From Bacillota bacterium (GTDB lineage Bacteria > Bacillota > UBA994 > UBA5500): DNA of 32,879 bases. The stretch covers positions 1 to 32,879 of the forward strand of contig JAKOXL010000031.1 in NCBI GenBank assembly GCA_029781045.1. Direction: 5' to 3'. The stretch's first letter is position 1. Every line of letters begins with the position of its first letter. Of this stretch, positions 7,334 to 25,069 are shown one piece after another. Under the pieces are notes generated by a model. The model was not told the DNA's origin. It saw only the letters and a program-made list of their open reading frames with translations, and searched no databases. A program made the position numbers and the translations under genes.

Positions 7334-8470
7334 TTACCAGAGCGTATAAAACACCCATTTACCAGCATCTGAACTAGTGTATGGCAAGTCCTTCACATCA
7401 TTGGTATGGCCACATCGTGTTCGTGTCACAGTATCGTTCTGGCTAATCATTACTATGTGTGAAGGCATGCGAATCACCGCACCCGCGACAGCAGTCTGGA
7501 AATCAGACTCCTTCCAATAGCCTTTGTTTAACATATAGGTTTCCATAGCCGACACAGATATCCAGGCAGATTTTCCAGGCGCCCATGTAGCATCTCTTGG
7601 CAGTCCACCTGCTTCTAGGCACTGAGACACAAAGTTGGCACAATCACTATGACAATACTTAGGATAGTTACTATTCCACTTTGTCTGGTCTCGATATACA
7701 TTAAGGTTTGCACCACAGTCGTACTTGTAGACAGCAGTGAATGGAACATTGGATGTGTAGCGCCTAGCATAGTCTCGAGCAGCAATTCGGTCGTAGTTAG
7801 GGTACAGACTAGATGTTACTTAAGTGGAGTTCTGCTTAGCTGCAATAGATCTTACCGCCTCACGCCCCTCATTCCGAAGGGTTTCAGGTTCAGCAGGGAA
7901 CATTTGCTCGACAGGTACGTGACCGTCTGAGTTCTGGGCTAGTACAGTCACCTGGTCTGAATCAAACTGTCCTCTGTTCAGCTTACCACTAATACGCAAA
8001 ATGAAATTAGTGTTTTGCTTTTCACCCAGATAACTCTCCACTTCCTCAACCCAAAAGTTTACTTGTTGGGCTACGGTGGCCTTCTGGGATTCGTTAAAAT
8101 CAGAGCGTTGCACGTGTTCCGCCCCAATATGCCCACTAGTGCGATCAGTAGGCACATTAGCTTCTTCAAACATTCCTTGTATGAAGGGTAGCTCATGCGC
8201 ATCTTTTGCTTTAAGAACACGAGTGAGGGAGACTAGCAAATCCGCTTGATACTGCTCACCTTCAACGGTTAGGTCGTAGAATTCTGCATGAGCATCGAGT
8301 ATATGGTAGTAATATGAATACCCATCAGCGACCAATTCCAGCGCGTAAATCTTGATCTGTTCAGCTAATACCTCACTCGAAGCGGTGACAGCGCTAGTCG
8401 GTGCCACAGCTTGGGCCACGAAACAGACAACGGCGAGGAACATAGCTGCTAAACGACTGGTTGGTTTCAT
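7334..8470 (-). pseudogene. Secreted amidase_6-type protein interrupted by an in-frame TAA
   Basis: One continuous minus-strand frame is broken only by a TAA at 7820-7822. The upstream part has a signal peptide (MKPTSRLAAMFLAVVCF, processed near AVAPTSA) and a domain of about 190 residues. The downstream part is a recognisable amidase_6 (putative NlpC-like cysteine amidase) domain: NYDRIAARDYARRY, then SDCANFVSQCLEAGG with the catalytic Cys, and late His residues in SHIVMIS and GHTND. The segment between these His motifs looks shortened compared with the family. The ATG at 8470 is preserved behind GGGGAG; a further in-frame ATG at 8542 with AGGAG would add 24 Cys-rich residues. It lies downstream of promoter-like site A. 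Only the N-terminal product would be made without readthrough. Confidence 0.85.
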
Positions 8471-8558
8471 GTTTTTCTCCCCTTTCTTTTTACACTTGAG
8501 TACCTGAGCACACGTACACCAGTAGCTCGTCTTGTCACACATAGAAACTCCTGTTTCG

Positions 8559-8607
8559 ATCACCCCCTCATCTATATATCAGTTGAGAGGTCCAATTTGT
8601 GACACCC
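8559..8607 (-). promoter_or_regulatory. Putative ECF promoter, site A
   Basis: Minus strand: TGTCACA (8598-8604), 17 bases, GATATA (8575-8580), then AGATGAGGGGGTGAT. It lies upstream of the amidase pseudogene and lipoprotein. It is one of seven sites in this window with identical spacing. Confidence 0.75.
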
Positions 8608-8697: not shown

Positions 8698-9861
8698 CTA
8701 TTCTCCCGCCCAGGTCCAACCGGCCAGCTGCCCATAGTCTCCTAAAGTTATAGGAGGAACTTGAAGGCCCTTAAGCGCTCCAGCAGCTCGCATCTTGCCA
8801 TCGGTAGTCTTCACAAACAGATGGGGCGTAACCCAAAAATCTTGCACTGAAGATGCAATTTCAACCCAGCCATCAGTTGATGCCCCAGGCACCAACTCAT
8901 CAACGGCACCACCATAACCGTATAGGCTTCCGTCCTGTCTAAGCACTACTAATAGATCGCCCGCATCGATAGTGGCAATAGCCATCTTTTGTACCTGATC
9001 AGCTATTAATATCGGTTCTGCACTGAGCTCGTCGCCATTGCTGTAGATATCGTCTAAGTTAAGCCCTAGCTGATAAAGCCTACCATCATTCTTAAGAATC
9101 AGGGTACGTTGCGGGGCTGCGAAAACACTTCGAACATCGTCGGCCACTTTCTTTGGAGTGGAGTTGGCTATGGGTCGGTGATTGGAACCTTTGAAACTGA
9201 TAATCCCCCACTCACCAAAACCCAACTCTCCCCAACCGTTAGCGCCGCAGGCAAAAAGCTGTCCATCCTTTGTCAGGTAATAGGAACGGTCGCCACCGGC
9301 AAACATATCTATCACGTCTTGAGCAATAGTCTCCAACCGAGCCAACTGGTCGCTCCCCAGCTGACCGAAGGTATTGTCGCCAAATCCTAGTAGTTCGCCG
9401 TTGTCTCTTAATATAAGCACATGCTCCTCACCTGCGGCTATTTTACGTACACCGGTCAGAACCTTAGTCTTAGTTAAATATCGTCTGTGATTACCACGAG
9501 CCTTTTCTACAGCCTCGGGGAAAACCTTGAAGTCTTGGTCGTTACCCATCACCCACAGTTCACCAGTCTCTGTCAGGTAGACAGTCGATCTTGGAAGCGC
9601 GACCGCCTGCTTAACCCCGTCGGCCAGTTTGATCGGCTTCCCCCCGCGGCTAACAATACCTAATTCTCCATCACCACTCCAACCGCTAGCCCACAGCTCG
9701 CTATTAGACGTAACAATCAGAGTACGGTCTCCATTGCCACTTATTTCTGTCACAGTGGCCGGGTCTAGTTTTTTGGTCGTTAGCACTCTATAACCTATTA
9801 GCGCTAGGCCTAACGCTAGCAGAGCAACAACGCCTAGCAAGATGCTTTTGTTCTTGCCCAT
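8698..9861 (-). CDS. Membrane-anchored RCC1-repeat protein
   Basis: A 387-residue protein with an N-terminal signal-anchor (SILLGVVALLALGLALIGY) followed by five or more repeats of about 50 residues of the RCC1 type, for example LIVTSNSELWASGWSGDGELG, VLILRDNGELLGFGDNTFGQLG and YYLTKDGQLFACGANGWGELG. RCC1 repeats form a seven-bladed beta-propeller, in bacteria usually an extracellular interaction surface. The ATG at 9861 is selected because GGGAGGTGA is 6-13 bases upstream; that ribosome site is formed by the last codons and stop of the preceding gene (stop 9867-9869), so the two are coupled. It belongs to the site B operon. Its partner is unknown. Confidence 0.82.
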   Translation of the reverse strand: MGKNKSILLGVVALLALGLALIGYRVLTTKKLDPATVTEISGNGDRTLIVTSNSELWASGWSGDGELGIVSRGGKPIKLADGVKQAVALPRSTVYLTETGELWVMGNDQDFKVFPEAVEKARGNHRRYLTKTKVLTGVRKIAAGEEHVLILRDNGELLGFGDNTFGQLGSDQLARLETIAQDVIDMFAGGDRSYYLTKDGQLFACGANGWGELGFGEWGIISFKGSNHRPIANSTPKKVADDVRSVFAAPQRTLILKNDGRLYQLGLNLDDIYSNGDELSAEPILIADQVQKMAIATIDAGDLLVVLRQDGSLYGYGGAVDELVPGASTDGWVEIASSVQDFWVTPHLFVKTTDGKMRAAGALKGLQVPPITLGDYGQLAGWTWAGE

Positions 9862-9866
9862 TGAGT

Positions 9867-10733
9867 TCACCTCCCAAGTGAAACCAAAGCGAATTTGAGC
9901 GTTCCATCTAGTTTCTTAAAACCAATCGTAACAGACTCGCCTTCATGATCAAACCAATAGATAGGCATGGAATCCCCAGGGCTTAGTTCGCCTACTTCAA
10001 ACGCTTGGATTTGCCTTAGAATAAGCTTTATTGAATCGCTGTTCCAGCCATCGACGTGTTTTTCTCCAGCTAGAAGTGCGGACAGTTGATCTGCGTATAC
10101 AATAGTTGCGTCACTCAGCTGAACATGCTCGCTAAGCTCGTTGCTTAGCTCGGCACGGTCATACTTCGGTAACCTAACTGGTTTCTCGTCAACAAGCATA
10201 TATACACCTTCCGGAAGCTGGGCAAAACTAGGGCTGTTGCTCTTGTAAAGCCTTACTGTGACTACAGCTTCGCTTCGAACCAGATCGTAATTGATAGATG
10301 GATGAATATCGCTTAAGGCTGAATAGTGAGTACTATCGGCATGAAATTTCATATCCCGGTAACTTGAAGGCCCAGTGTAGAAAAAATTAACATTCTTATC
10401 AACTACTCCTGTCAAAAGCGGCAAATAGGCAGGCTTTCCTTGCAGCGGAGTGTCATGAGTGCCTATATGAGTATAGTCATCGTTATAAACAGTTAGGTAA
10501 AGCCCCCAGGCTTCCTGCCCACCACCCACAGTAGTATTACCTTCAGCCCTAACCTTGTAAACATAGTTTGCTGGAGGAGAAGTAACCTGATCGTATACCC
10601 AGAGGTCGGTCCAGCCTTGTGTGTAGACACTAAATGGGGTGGCGTCAGCTTTATCGTGATATACAGCAGCAAAACAGATACCGGTAAAAGCTACAAATAG
10701 AATACCAGCAATAATAGAGCTTCTTTTCAACAC
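9867..10733 (-). CDS. Secreted protein of unknown function, first gene of site B operon
   Basis: A 288-residue protein with a clear signal peptide (MLKRSSIIAGILFVAFTGICFA) and a predominantly beta, Tyr/Asp-rich mature part. No family was recognised. It starts with GTG at 10733 behind a near-perfect AAAGGAGGT. The stop region supplies the ribosome site of the RCC1-like gene downstream. About 80 bases upstream is promoter-like site B, and the divergent ECF sigma gene starts at 10998. The context suggests an exported target of that sigma factor. The function is unknown. Confidence 0.82.
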   Translation of the reverse strand: MLKRSSIIAGILFVAFTGICFAAVYHDKADATPFSVYTQGWTDLWVYDQVTSPPANYVYKVRAEGNTTVGGGQEAWGLYLTVYNDDYTHIGTHDTPLQGKPAYLPLLTGVVDKNVNFFYTGPSSYRDMKFHADSTHYSALSDIHPSINYDLVRSEAVVTVRLYKSNSPSFAQLPEGVYMLVDEKPVRLPKYDRAELSNELSEHVQLSDATIVYADQLSALLAGEKHVDGWNSDSIKLILRQIQAFEVGELSPGDSMPIYWFDHEGESVTIGFKKLDGTLKFALVSLGR

Positions 10734-10814: not shown

Positions 10815-10863
10815 ATCACCCCCTCACCCGTATATCCATTGGGAAACTCAATTTGTGACACCC
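10815..10863 (-). promoter_or_regulatory. Putative ECF promoter, site B
   Basis: Minus strand: TGTCACA (10854-10860), 17 bases, GATATA (10831-10836), then GGGTGAGGGGGTGAT. It points at the secreted-protein/RCC1 operon and lies back to back with the sigma gene promoter. Confidence 0.8.
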
Positions 10864-10919: not shown

Positions 10920-10948
10920 TTGCTTAACCAATCAATCTATTCTATGAT
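10920..10948 (+). promoter_or_regulatory. Candidate vegetative promoter of the ECF sigma gene
   Basis: TTGCTT (10920-10925), 17 bases, TATGAT (10943-10948), about 50 bases before the sigma start. There is no TGTCACA motif in this position, so the sigma gene may not be directly autoregulated. Confidence 0.5.
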
Positions 10949-10997: not shown

Positions 10998-11555
10998 ATG
11001 AAGAAGCTCACTGCGTCCGACATGGAATATATTGAAGGGCTATACCGTGAAATGTATACGCTTCTGTTCAGCTATGCCAAAAGGGTTTTGCAGAAAGAAG
11101 CGCTAGCTGAAGAAGCGGTACAAGAGACCTTTGTAACGGCCTGCCAGCGCCTAGATAGCATTAAATCGAGCCCTAACCCACAGGGTTGGATAATGAACAC
11201 ATTGAAATATATCACCCGACGAATTCAAGAAGCACGCAATTTGCATAGTCGCTACCTATTTCTAGATGAATCGGCACTAAATATCCCTGACCCTACGGCT
11301 CATTACAAGGACCCGGCCCTGCTCTACGACGGTCTGGTCAGCCAGGAAGACTATTATTTGCTGAGCCGCACAGGCATAGATGGTTGTTCTACGTTAGAGC
11401 TGGCCAAAGAACTGGGCATTAGTTTGGCAGCTTGTCGAAAACGAATCCAAAGGGCAAGAGAAAGGTTTAGAGCCCAATACGGCCGCGAGTATAAGAAAAA
11501 GGAAAAAGCTAGATTGGGTGTCACAAAAAAGACTCAATCGCGGATATACGATTAG
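10998..11555 (+). CDS. ECF-type RNA polymerase sigma factor (only intact copy in window)
   Basis: A 185-residue cytoplasmic sigma-70 family protein. Region 2 spans about residues 10-85 (LYREMYTLLFSYAKRVL, EEAVQETFVTACQR, then PQGWIMNTLKYITRR). Region 4 is about residues 120-165 with a helix-turn-helix (STLELAKELGISLAACRKRIQRARERF). The ATG at 10998 follows GGGGGAGGGTGATGG; upstream in-frame codons have no ribosome site. The last codons overlap promoter-like site E, and the anti-sigma gene starts 14 bases after the stop. It should recruit polymerase to ECF promoters when released from the adjacent membrane anti-sigma. The seven TGTCACA-N17-RATATA sites are its probable targets (inference). Confidence 0.9.
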   Translation: MKKLTASDMEYIEGLYREMYTLLFSYAKRVLQKEALAEEAVQETFVTACQRLDSIKSSPNPQGWIMNTLKYITRRIQEARNLHSRYLFLDESALNIPDPTAHYKDPALLYDGLVSQEDYYLLSRTGIDGCSTLELAKELGISLAACRKRIQRARERFRAQYGREYKKKEKARLGVTKKTQSRIYD

Positions 11556-11562
11556 GGGGTGA
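11516..11562 (+). promoter_or_regulatory. Putative ECF promoter, site E, inside the end of the sigma gene
   Basis: TGTCACA (11519-11525), 17 bases, GATATA (11543-11548), followed by AGGGGGTGAT, which doubles as the ribosome site of the anti-sigma gene. The -35 and -10 lie within the last codons of the sigma gene, giving the anti-sigma its own sigma-dependent promoter. Confidence 0.75.
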
Positions 11563-11569
11563 TGATGCC

Positions 11570-12463
11570 ATGCAATCTGAAAACCGGGATGCACTAAAAG
11601 AGCGTTTTGCTCACTTGGATTTAGCACAACTAGAGGAGTTACTCCGGCAGGATTGGTTAGCTGATAGCAATAACCTGACGGCTGAGCAGACTCTGGCGAT
11701 TTTAGAGGTAATTGAGGAAAAGAAGTCTTCGGGGCTGAATGAAGACAGGGAAGCTGAAGTAGCGGCAGCCTGGCAGTCTTTTAAGCATCACTACCTGCCT
11801 CTGGTTGAAGCCGATGAGACTCTATACGGTGCCACTATCAGAAAAACGAAATCTACTAAACGTTGTTTTATACCACCTCGACTTTCCTGGGCCGCAGCTA
11901 TAATAGTCGTGTTCATCCTGTCTACCTCGGTTTTTGCTTATCAAGTTTATGGTTATAACATCTTCGAGAATATTGCCCAGTGGACAGCCGAGATTTTCCG
12001 GCTGAAAGCTCCTGTGGAGCCCAACGACAATCTGAACGAGAATTTAGGGGAAGATTTGTTCCCAGACGCCTCAGACCCCCGGCTGCAACCAGTGTATGCG
12101 ACAATGAAAGAGCTAGAGATACCGACTACTTTAGCACCAACCTGGATTCCGGAACGCTTCGATGGACATCCGATAGTTGAAACATCCACTACCCCATTTA
12201 AGGGGGTAATCTCTGCCTTCATCCACGAATCAGAAACACTCATGCTTAGCTTTGATTACCTTACCAAGGCTGACACCATATATGAAAAGGACGACTCTCT
12301 GGTTACCTCGTTACGGATTAACGGCGTCACCTACTACTTCATGTCCAACAATGCGCAGAACCGAGTTGTCTGGTCAGTCGACCAATTCGAATGCTCGATA
12401 AATGGAACAGTGACCTATGAAGAACTAGAACAGATAGTGCTATCTATTTATGAAAGGAGATAG
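11570..12463 (+). CDS. Membrane anti-sigma factor with DUF4367-like ectodomain
   Basis: A 297-residue single-pass protein: cytoplasmic acidic N-terminus (1-105) with a conserved ERFAHLDLAQLEELLRQDW segment likely to bind sigma, a membrane helix near 106-124, and an extracellular domain ending in a DUF4367-like region (about 180-295) with TLAPTWIPERF, INGVTYYFMSN and the terminal NGTVTYEELEQIVLSIYERR. DUF4367 proteins commonly sit beside ECF sigma genes. Paralogues lie at 15343-16335 and 19815-20639. The start at 11570 has AGGGGGTGATG upstream from site E. The next gene begins 3 bases after the stop. The signal it senses is not evident. Confidence 0.85.
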   Translation: MQSENRDALKERFAHLDLAQLEELLRQDWLADSNNLTAEQTLAILEVIEEKKSSGLNEDREAEVAAAWQSFKHHYLPLVEADETLYGATIRKTKSTKRCFIPPRLSWAAAIIVVFILSTSVFAYQVYGYNIFENIAQWTAEIFRLKAPVEPNDNLNENLGEDLFPDASDPRLQPVYATMKELEIPTTLAPTWIPERFDGHPIVETSTTPFKGVISAFIHESETLMLSFDYLTKADTIYEKDDSLVTSLRINGVTYYFMSNNAQNRVVWSVDQFECSINGTVTYEELEQIVLSIYERR

Positions 12464-12466
12464 AAG

Positions 12467-12907
12467 ATGAGAAAACCAAGGTATTACAGCATTTTACTAG
12501 TGGCATTGTTATTAAGCTTTGCTTTTTCATCGCATACAGCGGTAGCAGCGGAAATACCTTTGCGAGCTAGCGATTACTTTGATTCCATTCAGGCATCCTT
12601 AGAACCAACTGGCTACGGTCTCGTTCGCATCGATTTCCGAGTAACAGGCACCTCTTTAATGAAACAATTAGGTGCCACTGAAGTGCAGATCAAGGAAAAG
12701 ACCGCGACATCATGGACTACCGTACGTACTTATCGCTACGAGAATTTCCCTGATCTCATGGGTTATAACGTGCTGCAGCACTCCGGGAGCATCGTCTTCC
12801 CTGGTATCGCAGGACGCACCTATGTGGCACACATTACTTTTTACGCCTCAAATGCTAGTGGCAGCGAAAATCAGCTAGTAATCACCTCTCCTGCTACTGC
12901 CTACTAG
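12467..12907 (+). CDS. Small secreted protein, DUF6147-like
   Basis: A 146-residue exported protein: signal peptide (residues 1-28, ending AVAAEI) and a compact beta-rich domain beginning LRASDYFDS and ending GRTYVAHITFYASNASGS. The pattern RASDYF, a short IDFRVTGT strand, then LGATEVQI, a HSGSIVFPGIAGRTY loop and a closing strand recalls DUF6147 proteins; the function of that family is unknown. GGAGAT lies 6 bases before the ATG. It is the third gene of the sigma/anti-sigma unit, and a frameshifted paralogue sits in the same place in cassette 3 (20676-21111), so it belongs to the system. A hairpin follows at 12932. Confidence 0.82.
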   Translation: MRKPRYYSILLVALLLSFAFSSHTAVAAEIPLRASDYFDSIQASLEPTGYGLVRIDFRVTGTSLMKQLGATEVQIKEKTATSWTTVRTYRYENFPDLMGYNVLQHSGSIVFPGIAGRTYVAHITFYASNASGSENQLVITSPATAY

Positions 12908-14002: not shown

Positions 14003-14551
14003 TTAGAAGGTATCTTCAGCATCTCCAATAATAATTTCAGGAACCGTCTCAATTAGCTCCACACCCTGGGAATGAGAGATCTTAACCCGTATAGGCCGAT
14101 CCAGAATACTCAGCAGCGACTCGACCGCTCCTAATCCAGCCTCTTCATCAATAGGAGCATCTCTTGAAAATACTAGCCCTGGATGCCATCCTTCTCCTAA
14201 ATCGATGTATTGCTCTGGATCAAAAATCACATAGGGTCTACGGGTCCAGAGGATAGATGCAATCTCATCATCCAGCTTTGCTGAAATAACAGCTCTATTG
14301 ATTGCCGCTGCCCCATTCTTATGCAGCATTTTAATCTCGATAACAAGGTGTGTCGGAACTCCATCCTCAACCTTTACTGATATTCTGCTGTACGTTTCTA
14401 CATAAGGGTTGGTTGCTTGATAGCCTGTCTCTGGAAAATCGTAAAGTAGTTTTTGATGATTTGCCTTGGCTCTTGAGTTTACTAGAACAATGATGACAAC
14501 TATAGCTAGGGCAACGATCAACAATCCAATGAAAATTCGTTTTGGCTTCAT
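14003..14551 (-). CDS. Membrane-anchored protein of unknown function
   Basis: A 182-residue protein with an N-terminal signal-anchor (IFIGLLIVALAIVVIIVLV, residues 6-24) and an extracytoplasmic domain with no recognised family. The ATG is immediately after the TAG of the upstream gene (14552-14554), so they are coupled; the ribosome site is weak (ACAGG). A decayed paralogue is found at 5904-6152, next to another secreted-gene operon. It is the second gene of the site C unit, divergent from cassette 2. Confidence 0.8.
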   Translation of the reverse strand: MKPKRIFIGLLIVALAIVVIIVLVNSRAKANHQKLLYDFPETGYQATNPYVETYSRISVKVEDGVPTHLVIEIKMLHKNGAAAINRAVISAKLDDEIASILWTRRPYVIFDPEQYIDLGEGWHPGLVFSRDAPIDEEAGLGAVESLLSILDRPIRVKISHSQGVELIETVPEIIIGDAEDTF

Positions 14552-14929
14552 CTACCTGTTTTCTGCTACTACACGTTGCGGGTCAGGTAGGGGTGGTGTA
14601 TATCCCCATGTTTCAGTTGCGGGCCCCATAGCACGAACATATCGCTCCCGCGCAATTTGAGCTAGCATGTAGTGATCGGTATAGTGCTGCGCATACTGGA
14701 TTCCCGCTGGCGCATAACCGGTTCTATCTTCGTGAAGTGTTGGTTCATTATATTCCGGAAGCACGCGCGTGGAAATATTTCTAAGTTCGAGAGATGTCTC
14801 ATCCACTTTAACATAGGTAGGAACAACCAATCCAACGGCTTCTGCGCTTTTCACCGCAAAGCAGGTAGTAGTGAAGAGCATTGCTACGATTAGTAAAAGA
14901 CTGAGGCTAAAGGTTGTGTTCTTTTGCAT
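14552..14929 (-). CDS. Small secreted protein of unknown function
   Basis: A 125-residue protein with a clean signal peptide (MQKNTTFSLSLLLIVAMLFT, cut near CFAVKSAEA). The mature part is short and polar, with a Pro-rich C-terminus (YTPPLPDPQRVV). No family is recognised. GGGAGGT sits seven bases before the ATG. Promoter-like site C is about 155 bases upstream. It forms a two-gene unit with the membrane-anchored protein that follows without a gap. Confidence 0.78.
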   Translation of the reverse strand: MQKNTTFSLSLLLIVAMLFTTTCFAVKSAEAVGLVVPTYVKVDETSLELRNISTRVLPEYNEPTLHEDRTGYAPAGIQYAQHYTDHYMLAQIARERYVRAMGPATETWGYTPPLPDPQRVVAENR

Positions 14930-15069: not shown

Positions 15070-15118
15070 ATCACCCCCTCATCTATTCATGTCGCGAACC
15101 CCTTGATTTGTGACACCC
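15070..15118 (-). promoter_or_regulatory. Putative ECF promoter, site C (degenerate -10)
   Basis: Minus strand: TGTCACA (15109-15115), 17 bases, CATGAA (15086-15091), then TAGATGAGGGGGTGAT. The flanks match the other sites base for base but the -10 departs from RATATA, so activity may be lower. Confidence 0.6.
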
Positions 15119-15342: not shown

Positions 15343-16335
15343 GTGTCACACCGACTCACTGAATCTGAGCAACGGTTCCTGAACGAGTTATATGCAAAAA
15401 TGCGCACACCCATGTCTAATCTGGCAATAGGGACTCTGCGCCAAAACTCCTTGGCAAAAGACGCAGTACAAGAGACGATGCTTATCGCCAGCAAAAAAGA
15501 ACGGTTTGCCAAGCTAGAGACGGAGCAGTTGGAGGGATTAATCGAGCAGGACTGGCAAGAAGGAGGCAGCACGCTTAATGCGGAAGAAACTCTGGCTATC
15601 TTAGAGATACTTGAGGAAAGAAGTCCCTCAGGGGTGACAGATGACGAGATTGAAGCGGAGTGGCAGACTTTCCTAACCGACTATCTGCCCGTATTGGAGG
15701 AAACCGGAGAAACCCTTTATGAAGGCATTTACGACCTCACAGAGCCAGCTGTTAAACACCGCTCCAAAACATCTATGCTTACACGCGTTGCCGCTATACT
15801 AGCGGTGGTTGTCGTGTCGTCATCGCTGTTTGTTTATAAAACTTACAGCTATAACGTATGGGAGAACTTTGCCAAATGGACGGCCGAAATATTTCGCCTA
15901 GATAACCAAGGCGCACCCATCGAAGAGCCTATGTTTCCAAACGCGGCAGATCCAAGACTGCAACCACTTTATGAGGCAATGAAGGATCTAGAAATACCGA
16001 CAACGTTAGCACCGACTTGGATTCCGGAACGTTTCCAAGCTACCGGAATAATTGACTCATCGGATACTCCATTTAAAGGCGTTGTCAACACCTTTGTCCA
16101 GGAACAGGAGGTACTAATGCTGATTTTTGAGCACAGTACCGATACAGACACTATATATGAAAAGGATGACACCGATGTCACCACCTTGAAAATCAACGGA
16201 GTCACTTACTACTTCATGTCTAACTTGGCGCAGAATAGAGTTGTCTGGTCGGTAAACCAATTTGAGTGCTCAATTAACGGGACGGTCAGCTATGAAGAGC
16301 TGGAACAAATGGTGCGATCAATATACGAGAGGTGA
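15343..16335 (+). CDS. Chimeric sigma N-terminus fused to DUF4367-like anti-sigma (cassette 2)
   Basis: An unbroken 330-residue frame. Residues 1-50 (LTESEQRFLNELYAKM, SLAKDAVQETMLIAS) match the start of the intact sigma factor up to region 2.2. From residue 51 (KKERFAKLETEQLEGLIEQDW) it matches residue 10 onward of the anti-sigma at 11570, with a membrane helix near 148-165 and the DUF4367-like end NGTVSYEELEQMVRSIYER. The join at about 15492 lies in an A-rich run. A deletion has removed the rest of sigma, the internal promoter and the anti-sigma start while keeping the frame. GTG at 15343 follows GGGGGTGAT. It may still act as an anti-sigma carrying a sigma fragment. No small secreted gene follows. 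Confidence 0.85.
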   Translation: MSHRLTESEQRFLNELYAKMRTPMSNLAIGTLRQNSLAKDAVQETMLIASKKERFAKLETEQLEGLIEQDWQEGGSTLNAEETLAILEILEERSPSGVTDDEIEAEWQTFLTDYLPVLEETGETLYEGIYDLTEPAVKHRSKTSMLTRVAAILAVVVVSSSLFVYKTYSYNVWENFAKWTAEIFRLDNQGAPIEEPMFPNAADPRLQPLYEAMKDLEIPTTLAPTWIPERFQATGIIDSSDTPFKGVVNTFVQEQEVLMLIFEHSTDTDTIYEKDDTDVTTLKINGVTYYFMSNLAQNRVVWSVNQFECSINGTVSYEELEQMVRSIYER

Positions 16336-18489: not shown

Positions 18490-19296
18490 CTAGAAATCAT
18501 CCCAGTTAAAGTTATGGGTATGAAGTCCTCCAGGCGATGTGTGATAGTTACCAGGCAAGGAAATAGAGATTGAGGGAGCTCCACCAAAACTTATAGACCC
18601 ATTAATAGGCCAAATTTGATGAAAATACTTGCCCAGCAGGCCGATACTATCAGGGCCGCTTTTGCCAGTCTTAGCCTGCTGTACTTTTACAGATAACCAT
18701 CCAGAATGGCTATCGGCTGAAACATAGTTTCCGTCCCAGTTTGTAAAACCCGATATTATGTCGTGCCGGCTAGAAAGTCCTGTAGTAGCATTTGCATCGT
18801 AATTCGTACCTGATTGCATGCTATAATAACTACCCGAATGCGCATAGTATCTCCATTCTTGACTATTATTAACATAGTCCCAACCAGATTCCCAAGCCAC
18901 CGCTACCTTGTCAACAAAAGTCTGGAGAGGCGCCGCCAACCATGCCCAGGTGTATGTAATTAGAAACTGAGCCATACCGGCGGGGGCTGTACTTACTCTA
19001 GACAAAACAAATGTTCCATGATAGTTATTTATATCGACACGCTCTACGCCTAAATCACCGATGTTCGAAACCTCCGTCTGCATGCTCACAAACTTACATC
19101 CCTCATTGTACAGTAACTCTCTAAGATCATAGTCAAAAGAGTTAATGATATCCAGTGGATACCCACTATCAATAAGATACTGATTCAACACGCCCTCGTC
19201 AATCTTTATATCATTCTCTGGTGTGGTTACTGCTGCAAAGGTTGCAGAAGGAAGTAAAAGCAACAAGCAGAGCACAAAAGCAACACATCTTTTCAT
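18490..19296 (-). CDS. Secreted protein of unknown function (cassette 3)
   Basis: A 268-residue exported protein: signal peptide MKRCVAFVLCLLLLLPSATFA, then a mature region with many Tyr, Ser, Gly and Trp residues, ending in a His-rich tail (HTSPGGLHTHNFNWDDF). No family is recognised. The ATG at 19296 is chosen because AAAGGTGA stands six bases upstream; a GTG at 19305 is part of that ribosome site. Promoter-like site D lies about 100 bases upstream. It occupies the same place relative to the cassette as the secreted genes at 9867 and 14552, though its sequence is unrelated. Confidence 0.82.
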   Translation of the reverse strand: MKRCVAFVLCLLLLLPSATFAAVTTPENDIKIDEGVLNQYLIDSGYPLDIINSFDYDLRELLYNEGCKFVSMQTEVSNIGDLGVERVDINNYHGTFVLSRVSTAPAGMAQFLITYTWAWLAAPLQTFVDKVAVAWESGWDYVNNSQEWRYYAHSGSYYSMQSGTNYDANATTGLSSRHDIISGFTNWDGNYVSADSHSGWLSVKVQQAKTGKSGPDSIGLLGKYFHQIWPINGSISFGGAPSISISLPGNYHTSPGGLHTHNFNWDDF

Positions 19297-19393
19297 TAAT
19301 TTCACCTTTCTTTCCTTATCTTATCACCTTGCTGACTGCGACAAAACCCTGGACAACTCTACTACCGCAATAGCGTTCAAATATCTTATCAGC

Positions 19394-19442
19394 ATCACCC
19401 CCTCATCTATCTATTTCCTGAGACACGCGATTTGTGACACCC
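19394..19442 (-). promoter_or_regulatory. Putative ECF promoter, site D
   Basis: Minus strand: TGTCACA (19433-19439), 17 bases, AATAGA (19410-19415), then TAGATGAGGGGGTGAT. It faces the secreted-protein gene at 19296. Confidence 0.7.
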
Positions 19443-19514: not shown

Positions 19515-19757
19515 TTAGAAGGCCACATAGATACAAAAGCAGATCAAATCAATCCTGACTTGCTTTATGAGGGCCTGGTAAGTGAGGAAGATTACTGCAT
19601 ACTTCGCCGCCTAGGGATTGATGGTTGTACAGTTAAGGAACTGGCTGACGAGCTTAGTATCAGTTCGGCTACAGCCCGTAAACGAATCCAAAGGGCAGGA
19701 GAGAGATTTCGAAAACAGTATGCGCAGCAGATAGACGTGATTGAAAAAGACTTATAA
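19515..19757 (+). pseudogene. C-terminal fragment of an ECF sigma factor (cassette 3)
   Basis: This is the region 4 half only. HIDTKADQINPDLLYEGLVS aligns with the linker of the intact sigma (DPALLYDGLVS), and VKELADELSISSATARKRIQ with its helix-turn-helix. The N-terminal region 2 that binds the -10 element is missing, and the sequence before about 19515 has stops. The TTG at 19560 could start a peptide of 65 residues, but no ribosome site supports it. The anti-sigma promoter F follows its end. Confidence 0.8.
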
Positions 19758-19760
19758 AGG

Positions 19761-19806
19761 GGTGTCACAAAACGCGCCCTTCAGGAAATATATAAGTAAG
19801 GGGGTA
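19761..19806 (+). promoter_or_regulatory. Putative ECF promoter, site F
   Basis: TGTCACA (19763-19769), 17 bases, AATATA (19787-19792), then AAGTAAGGGGGTACT, which serves as ribosome site for the anti-sigma gene at 19815. It is equivalent to site E. Confidence 0.75.
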
Positions 19807-19814
19807 CTAACGCT

Positions 19815-20639
19815 ATGCGAAGAGACAAGGAATTCTACAAAGAACACTTTGCCAATTTTGATGTCGATCAACTAGAGGAGCTAATCCAACGAGATTGGCA
19901 AGCTGATGGCACTCTGCTTAATGCGGAACAAGTTCTAGCTATCGCAGAGATACTTGAGGAGAAAATTCCTTCGGGGGTGACGGATGAGGAAATCGAAGCA
20001 GACTGGCAATCTTTCTTGAACGATTATCTGCCACTACTAGAGGTGGACGAACCCCTTACTGAAGCCAAGGGAAATAAAGAGCAACTTCCCAAGCACTCCA
20101 GAATTGCGTGGGCTGCCGGCATACTAGCGGTGGTTATTCTGTCTACCTCTGTGTTTACCCAGCTAGTCTACGGTTATAACGTGTGGGAGAATTTGGCTAA
20201 GTGGACGGCAGAGATCTTCCAGCTGAAGACTCCTGTTCCACCCAACGAGAATCCTGAAGAAGATATGTTCTCAAACGCGGCAGATCCAAGACTACAACCA
20301 CTTTATGAGGCGATGAGGGATCTAGAAATACCGACAACGTTAGCACCGACTTGGATTCCGGAACGCTTTGAGGACCCGGGAATAATTGAGACGTCAGACT
20401 TCCCGTTTAAGGGGGTGGTCACTGCCTTTACCCAAGAGCAAGAAACACTGATGCTCATCTTTGACTACATTGCTGACGGGGAAACCATGTATGAAAAGGA
20501 TGATGCGCCTGTAGAAACTTTGAAAATCAACGGGGTCACCTACTACTTCATGTCTAATCTGGCACATAAGCAGGTTATCTGGTCGGTAAACGAATTCGAA
20601 TGTTCGATTCAAGGGACGGTCAGCTATGAAGAGTTATAA
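19815..20639 (+). CDS. DUF4367-like membrane anti-sigma factor, last residues lost (cassette 3)
   Basis: A 274-residue paralogue of the anti-sigma at 11570: acidic N-terminus with the LEELIQRDWQADG segment, membrane helix near 97-115 (GILAVVILSTSVF), ectodomain with TLAPTWIPERF and INGVTYYFMSN. It ends at TAA 20637-20639 where the paralogues have a Glu codon (YEELEQ); the lost nine residues QMVRSIYER are still readable before a TGA at 20667-20669. It keeps its own ECF-type promoter (site F) although its sigma partner is only a fragment, so any sigma it binds would be the one at 10998 or one elsewhere. Confidence 0.82.
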   Translation: MRRDKEFYKEHFANFDVDQLEELIQRDWQADGTLLNAEQVLAIAEILEEKIPSGVTDEEIEADWQSFLNDYLPLLEVDEPLTEAKGNKEQLPKHSRIAWAAGILAVVILSTSVFTQLVYGYNVWENLAKWTAEIFQLKTPVPPNENPEEDMFSNAADPRLQPLYEAMRDLEIPTTLAPTWIPERFEDPGIIETSDFPFKGVVTAFTQEQETLMLIFDYIADGETMYEKDDAPVETLKINGVTYYFMSNLAHKQVIWSVNEFECSIQGTVSYEEL

Positions 20640-20675
20640 CAAATGGTGCGGTCTATATACGAGAGGTGATAAGAA

Positions 20676-21111
20676 ATGAAGCGAGCAAAATTAAGCAGTA
20701 TTATTCTAGCAGTAATGTTACTAGGGCTAGCCGTTGTGCCACAGATGGTGGCAGCAAATACGGAGCCTTTGAGAGCCTGTGAGTATATTTTCAGTCGTCA
20801 AGCAGCTGCAGTACCACTTAACTACGGCCAGATCCGCTTTGATTTCCAGATATACTTCCATTATGAATCAACTGGGCGTAACTGAGATACAAATCCTAGA
20901 GCAAAACGGAACTTCATGGAGAACGGTTGAGATCTACCGCTACCAAGACTATCCTAATCTCATGGGGAGCAATACATTAAGACACACCGGCAGCATAACT
21001 TTCCCTGGCATCGCCGGTCGAACTTATGTAGCCCACATTACCTTCTACGCCGCAAATGCAAAGGGCAGTGAAACACAGGTAATTACCACCTCTTCTGTCA
21101 CTGCCTACTAG
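20676..21111 (+). pseudogene. Frameshifted DUF6147-like small secreted protein (cassette 3)
   Basis: A paralogue of 12467-12907. The first frame gives a signal peptide and PLRACEYIFSRQAAAVPLNY up to RFDFQIYF. The second frame gives MNQLGVTEIQILEQ through GRTYVAHITFYAANAKGSET to 21111. Compared with cassette 1, the stretch between GATTTC and the ATG of M(N/K)QLG is 16 instead of 21 bases, so a 5-base loss broke the frame. GAGGTGAT precedes the start. Confidence 0.83.
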
Positions 21112-25036: not shown

Positions 25037-25069
25037 TATATCTCTTGAAAGCAGCGAATTGTGACAGGG
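25037..25069 (-). promoter_or_regulatory. Putative ECF promoter, site G
   Basis: Minus strand: TGTCACA (25060-25066), 17 bases, GATATA (25037-25042), then GAGGTGG. Unlike sites A-F it lacks the GGGGGTGAT tail, so it is not just a copied block. It faces the 33-residue membrane protein. Confidence 0.55.

Follow-up and report, generated by a model that had tools for sequence, protein, structure and literature searches.

A conserved promoter-like element between an ECF sigma factor gene and its presumed anti-sigma gene

Which gene of an ECF sigma/anti-sigma pair lies behind a promoter of the sigma factor's own type, the gene of the activator or that of its presumed inhibitor? The question is raised by a stretch of 32,879 nucleotides (the window), which is contig C33 of a 2.0-Mb draft genome in 57 contigs. 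Here a promoter-like site, site E, begins within the 3' end of an ECF sigma gene, and its tail is the Shine-Dalgarno sequence of the presumed anti-sigma gene that follows (Table 1). The 5' part of the site is formed by GGGTGTCACAAA (11516-11527, plus strand), exactly 17 nt separate TGTCACA (11519-11525) from GATATA (11543-11548), and the 3' end, GGGGGTGAT (11555-11563), lies 6 nt 5' of the anti-sigma ATG at 11570. This confirms the initial annotation, which had seen in the end of the sigma gene a sigma-type site whose tail doubles as the ribosome site of the anti-sigma gene. From its boxes, transcription would be expected to start near 11555.

Table 1. Positions of promoter-like sites and genes in the window
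Feature	Position	Strand	Remarks
Site A	8559-8607	-	5' of exported-protein gene 7820-8563
Site B	10815-10863	-	divergent from sigma gene; 5' of exported-protein gene 9867-10733 and RCC1-repeat gene 8698-9870
Vegetative-like promoter of sigma gene	10920-10948	+	TTGCTT-N17-TATGAT; same boxes and spacing 5' of the L043 sigma gene
ECF sigma factor gene, cassette 1	10998-11555	+	Pfam Sigma70_r2 (3.6e-9), Sigma70_r4_2 (8.5e-7)
Site E	11516-11563	+	-35-like TGTCACA, N17, -10-like GATATA, Shine-Dalgarno GGGGGTGAT; also at this junction in L043 and L044
Presumed anti-sigma gene, cassette 1	11570-12463	+	Pfam DUF4367 (2.6e-7); helical N-terminus
Small exported protein, third gene of cassette 1	12467-12907	+	starts 3 nt after the anti-sigma stop
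Site C	15070-15118	-	5' of exported-protein gene 14552-14929 and gene 14003-14551
Cassette 2, fusion gene (sigma N-terminal stub joined in frame with anti-sigma)	15343-16335	+	without an E-type site
Site D	19394-19442	-	5' of exported-protein gene 18490-19305
Cassette 3 sigma remnant	19560-19757	+	region 4 only
Site F	19760-19808	+	TGTCACAA-N15-AAATATATA and GGGGGTACT, 5' of the cassette 3 anti-sigma gene
Cassette 3 anti-sigma gene	19815-20639	+	59% identical to anti-sigma 1; dN/dS 0.17 to anti-sigma 1
Further TGTCACA-N17-GATATA match	25037-25066	-	pattern match

The exact 12-mer GGGTGTCACAAA is found six times in the window, at sites A to D (minus strand) and at sites E and F (plus strand); with up to two mismatches there are eight matches, against a shuffle mean of 2.20. 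TGTCACA-N20-36-GGGGGTGAT occurs five times in the window, where shuffles give an expectation of 0.00, and a search of the whole 2.0-Mb genome with a spacer of N20-40 returned the same five matches. The products of the minus-strand genes behind sites A to D have signal-peptide-like starts (read by eye), and sites B to D are divergent from sigma genes. Another element match, G000:C48:51061, was set aside on account of its position inside a gene. The minus-strand match at 25037-25066 has no clear target gene, and a closely similar site is present at L044 4064. A gene similar to the RCC1-repeat gene behind site B is found near the element in the related genome G002 (L045 5580-6863).

The sigma gene of cassette 1 encodes 185 amino acids with the Sigma70_r2 and Sigma70_r4_2 domains only, which is the ECF layout. 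It is the only intact sigma among the three cassettes and has a 77% identical ortholog in G002. The DUF4367 domain of the following product, together with the adjoining ECF gene, would place it among DUF4367-type membrane anti-sigma factors. Its anti-sigma role is presumed from gene order and layout, with binding and inhibition of sigma putative; a low-confidence structural model (mean pLDDT 43) has helices at 2-75 and 104-127, the latter in the position of a transmembrane segment. Comparison with its orthologs gave dN/dS values of 0.15-0.17. The third gene has counterparts in L043, L084 and L085.

Cassettes 1 to 3 are paralogous, and the sigma gene is broken in two of them. Since the sigma of cassette 2 is a stub fused to the anti-sigma and that of cassette 3 retains region 4 only, the locus holds one intact sigma factor and three anti-sigma copies. 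Purifying selection still acts on the anti-sigma genes (pairwise dN/dS 0.10-0.19), and so it does on the copy at L044, which stands beside a sigma remnant. Site F had been described as arranged in the same way as site E; it does stand ahead of the cassette 3 anti-sigma gene, but just past the stop of the region-4-only remnant and not inside a working sigma gene. The junction site has been lost from the fusion gene of cassette 2. In cassette 3 the anti-sigma frame stops about 10 codons earlier than its paralogs (window 20637-21111), and the third gene (20676-21111) looks frameshifted.

What drives the sigma gene itself? TTGCTT-N17-TATGAT, in the region 5' of its start, matches the vegetative consensus at 8 of 12 positions, which is under the 9-of-12 threshold of our scan, and is kept at L043. 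On the plus strand there is no TGTCACA between 9748 and 11519, so none precedes the sigma start at 10998. A TGTCACA-type start upstream of 10998, which would have contradicted the initial annotation, was thus not found, and cassette 1 lacks the sigma-type promoter 5' of the sigma gene that defines positively autoregulated ECF operons. A terminator or attenuator in the junction between the sigma and anti-sigma genes of cassette 1 was also considered, and was rejected when a scan for terminator-like hairpins found none there. Because no such hairpin separates the two genes, the vegetative transcript of the sigma gene probably also makes the anti-sigma.

Relatives were identified by anti-sigma homology in two uncultured Firmicutes MAGs, CALNBW010000478 (G001) and UBA5500 (G002), and, more distantly, in Oscillibacter sp. 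MSJ-31 and an Oscillospiraceae MAG. G001 has one copy of GGTGTCACAAA and G002 has four; in each genome one copy lies between the sigma gene (or its remnant) and the anti-sigma gene, so that, with the window, all three species of the genus have the site at the sigma/anti-sigma junction. In both of the other genus genomes the junction site lies just 3' of the sigma stop codon, and at L043 and L044 the sigma frame ends immediately 5' of GGGTGTCACA; thus, that the site of cassette 1 reaches into the sigma coding sequence is a secondary feature. The element is intact also beside sigma remnants, at L044 and in cassette 3. At L044 the anti-sigma gene and its junction site are intact 3' of the sigma remnant and of a gene pair (L044 1501-4500) that we take to be an IS21-like istAB.

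We searched 15 genomes of the class for TGTCACA-N16-18-GATATA. The three genus genomes contain 13 sites, every one with a spacer of 17, against zero for reversed controls; the other 12 genomes contain four sites, none with a spacer of 17, against three for reversed controls. The GGGGGTGAT tail is common to sites A to E and confined to this window, and the remaining genus sites have in common only TGTCACA-N17-GATATA and a loose GRTGAAG. Part of the likeness in the tail is therefore probably due to local duplication. This local tail, the paralogy of the cassettes and the two broken sigma copies might suggest that the copies in the window are chance matches or functionless leftovers of cassette duplication. 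We regard that as highly improbable, given that the same element occupies the same junction in two other species and is also present in Oscillospirales relatives; in the two named relatives the anti-sigma identity is only 25-32%.

A different concern is whether the element belongs to this sigma factor at all, or is the operator of another regulator or the promoter of a different sigma. Two observations point that way: in G001 the cassette sigma is a remnant while element and anti-sigma are intact, and in G002 a different ECF sigma gene is present twice, each copy with the element about 180-225 nt 5' of it (L045 4469 and 7259). Against it stand the single -35/-10-like spacing across the genus sites, the orientation of the six window sites, all of which point into genes, the lack of genus-like spacing in the 12 class genomes outside the genus, and G003, the one other family member, in which no match to this anti-sigma was found. 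We consider such an outside owner of the element unlikely, and prefer the cassette's own sigma factor. This placement in G002 raises the possibility of a sigma cascade. One of the two ECF sigma copies there is followed by an RCC1-repeat-like gene. The single GGTGTCACAAA of G003 lacks a suitably placed -10 and resembles a chance occurrence.

For a wider comparison we collected 78 loci with anti-sigma relatives from genomes of the family and the order to which the Oscillospiraceae MAG belongs (matches in 44 of 200 genomes in one search and 27 of 394 in another). An ECF sigma gene lies directly 5' of the anti-sigma gene in 76 of the 78. After removal of anti-sigmas at least 70% identical, 67 non-redundant pairs remained, all from a single order and of shared ancestry. 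A matrix built from the 13 genus sites, and hence from no Oscillospirales sequence, exceeded its 99% shuffle threshold at 22 of the 67 junctions. In the control regions it did so in 2/67 (100 nt before the sigma start), 1/66 (the next 100 nt), 2/67 (sigma 3' end) and 0/66 (after the anti-sigma gene). The other 45 junctions are under the threshold; in 11 junctions the spacer is <40 nt, where the element would scarcely fit, if at all.

A de novo two-block search of the junctions returned TGTC(A/C)cAA-N16-CATATATA, of the same geometry as the genus element; its likelihood gain was 195.3, where eight shuffled sets gave 62-73. Five-fold cross-validation of this motif was weak (11/67 junctions at 99%, controls 2 to 5) because in three of the five folds the search ended at an A-tract optimum, and we have therefore relied on the genus-trained matrix and on a plain pattern. 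TGTC-N20/21-ATATA is present at 14 of the 67 junctions and in none of 266 control windows. When the set was reduced to 37 representatives with <35% identity, TGTC-N20/21-ATA was found in 10 junctions and once across all control windows. What is read directly from the genomes is thus the element with its spacing, where it lies, that it is conserved and that it is absent 5' of sigma genes.

Of the 67 junctions, 19 carry TGTC-N20/21-ATA. In 18 of these, ATA lies 17-29 nt from the anti-sigma start (mode 24), and in the other one 70 nt; the distance from the sigma stop varies from 3 to 48 nt. Sites E and F, read by hand in the same way, give 23 and 24 nt. These positions bear on a reading in which E is a sigma-dependent promoter meant for the third gene, a regulon member, with the anti-sigma gene merely carried along. 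The third gene does begin 3 nt past the anti-sigma gene, and an exported third gene is found, by a crude rule, in 46 of the 67 Oscillospirales cassettes and in 14 of the 19 motif-positive ones. However, in most motif-positive junctions the element lies mostly 22-24 nt from the anti-sigma start, and the anti-sigma would be boosted under this reading as well; we hold it to be a less probable explanation than a promoter intended for the anti-sigma gene.

Could the junction site simply be a vegetative promoter that holds the anti-sigma in excess, with no feedback? GATATA does resemble a vegetative -10, but all six window sites have an identical -35 sequence, TGTCACA, which is unlike TTGACA. Moreover, vegetative-like promoters at the 67 junctions (8/67) are not enriched over shuffles (15.8%), on which ground a vegetative promoter at the junction was rejected, whereas those 5' of the sigma gene are (25/67 against 13.7% in shuffles, binomial p ~1e-6). 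A housekeeping promoter is thus a very unlikely account of E. Conservation in the genus and enrichment at Oscillospirales junctions give strong comparative support to a candidate sigma-type promoter that would serve the anti-sigma gene rather than the gene of the sigma factor. The sigma recognition helix went with the motif (18/33 against 1/34), by a helix rule that was chosen after the table had been seen; under the matrix criterion the association was not significant (14/33 against 8/34, p = 0.12). A region 2.4 signature showed no difference with the motif (5/19 against 10/48).

Genome-wide copies were sought with TGTCC-N17/18-ACATATA, which has 69 sites in 20 Oscillospirales genomes, against nine for the reversed pattern; four genomes carry 9-15 sites each. 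Thirty sites were examined: eight are before anti-sigma genes, one is before an anti-sigma remnant and none is before a sigma gene, 14 are before signal-peptide or lipoprotein-like starts (judged by eye), and seven have other genes or nothing clear behind them. One site, in G169, is divergent from a sigma gene, like sites B to D in the window. The 9-15 copies of the promoter-like site TGTCC...CGGACATATA in each of G266, G289, G307 and G349, several of them before lipoprotein-like genes, are a ready-made candidate regulon.

From these comparisons we think it probable that E and F are promoters of the regulon of their own ECF sigma factor, with the anti-sigma gene also placed on such a promoter and the sigma gene on a vegetative one. 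In the circuit that we propose, the sigma gene would be expressed steadily from its vegetative promoter, and read-through would supply sigma and anti-sigma together at a basal level. The DUF4367 side would sense a signal that relieves the membrane anti-sigma and sets sigma free. Free sigma would then transcribe the exported-protein genes behind sites A to D and, at site E, produce a short-leader transcript for the anti-sigma and the small exported protein. Because free sigma would raise the anti-sigma but not sigma, the response would be self-limiting. That this sigma recognizes the site, that its neighbour is an anti-sigma and that the feedback is negative is what we infer from sequence. The initial annotation is supported as to a junction promoter for the anti-sigma and not the sigma gene, by conservation in the genus and enrichment in Oscillospirales; the negative feedback that it drew from this arrangement is still a proposal. 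Counting against the circuit, the AT-rich -10 box GATATA differs from the CGT box that is usual for ECF factors (PMC8103513, PMC3426412).

On a broader scale, these observations may reflect a clade-wide wiring of Clostridia ECF systems composed of ECF sigma, DUF4367 anti-sigma and small exported protein, in which the sigma gene lies outside and the anti-sigma gene inside the sigma factor's own regulon by way of a dedicated junction promoter. The same promoter would keep orphan anti-sigmas alive after decay of the sigma gene, as in cassette 3 and L044, with inhibitors piling up against the one remaining sigma. Our confidence in this extension is evenly divided. Traces of the arrangement are seen in many related bacteria of gut type. 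If the junction does hold the target promoter, the specificity of non-autoregulated ECF factors could be read from genomes alone, and the circuit would be a conserved one for self-limitation, not amplification. In PMC8103513 most ECF factors are described as positively autoregulated (about 55% are predicted to be), and predicting promoters for the others is presented as an open task.

How does this arrangement compare with known systems? An element of the sigma factor's presumed regulon directly 5' of the anti-sigma gene is, at the level of sequence, the logic of FlgM, the anti-sigma28. The flgM gene presumably does not adjoin the sigma28 gene in one sigma/anti-sigma cassette, unlike the pair described here. 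Directly upstream, flgM has a dedicated sigma28-dependent promoter, P2, which is thus read by the sigma factor that FlgM inhibits, as is proposed here, and the arrangement is described as negative feedback; unlike here, sigma28 is not an ECF factor and its gene also has a class 3 promoter (PMC3861889). The same source holds feedback of this kind, by way of a sigma-dependent promoter of the anti-sigma gene, to be general among E. coli anti-sigmas. In Methylobacterium extorquens EcfG1/NepR the sigma gene is apparently not autoregulated, and a sigmaEcfG-dependent promoter has been mapped or predicted upstream of nepR, both as proposed here. That system differs in its partner-switch, in ecfG genes located away from the phyR locus, in positive feedback possibly through EcfG3, and in having no conserved junction promoter described (PMC4814048). 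The remark in the initial annotation that the locus is unlike the usual autoregulated sigma operon is fair for ECF factors, but sigma-dependent promoters of anti-sigma genes are known from FlgM and NepR.

ECF41 shares the -35 box TGTCACA with all six window sites. Its -10, in contrast, is CGTC after 16 +/- 1 nt, where the present sites have a GATATA-type box; its sigma has a fused C-terminal regulatory domain, where the present one ends at 185 amino acids with no further domain; its targets are COE genes, and its motif can precede the sigma gene (PMC3426412). The typical autoregulated ECF operon likewise has an ECF sigma gene adjoining that of a presumed membrane anti-sigma, but there the sigma-dependent promoter drives the sigma-containing operon, and here none was found 5' of the sigma gene (PMC8103513). 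Our literature search found no paper linking DUF4367 with a sigma factor and, being partial, no description of a dedicated promoter conserved at an ECF sigma/anti-sigma junction with sigma left out, although more may exist in print. The feedback principle is already known from FlgM and NepR, and the present locus would represent a variant of it, in which the new element is a conserved promoter at the ECF junction that leaves the sigma gene out.
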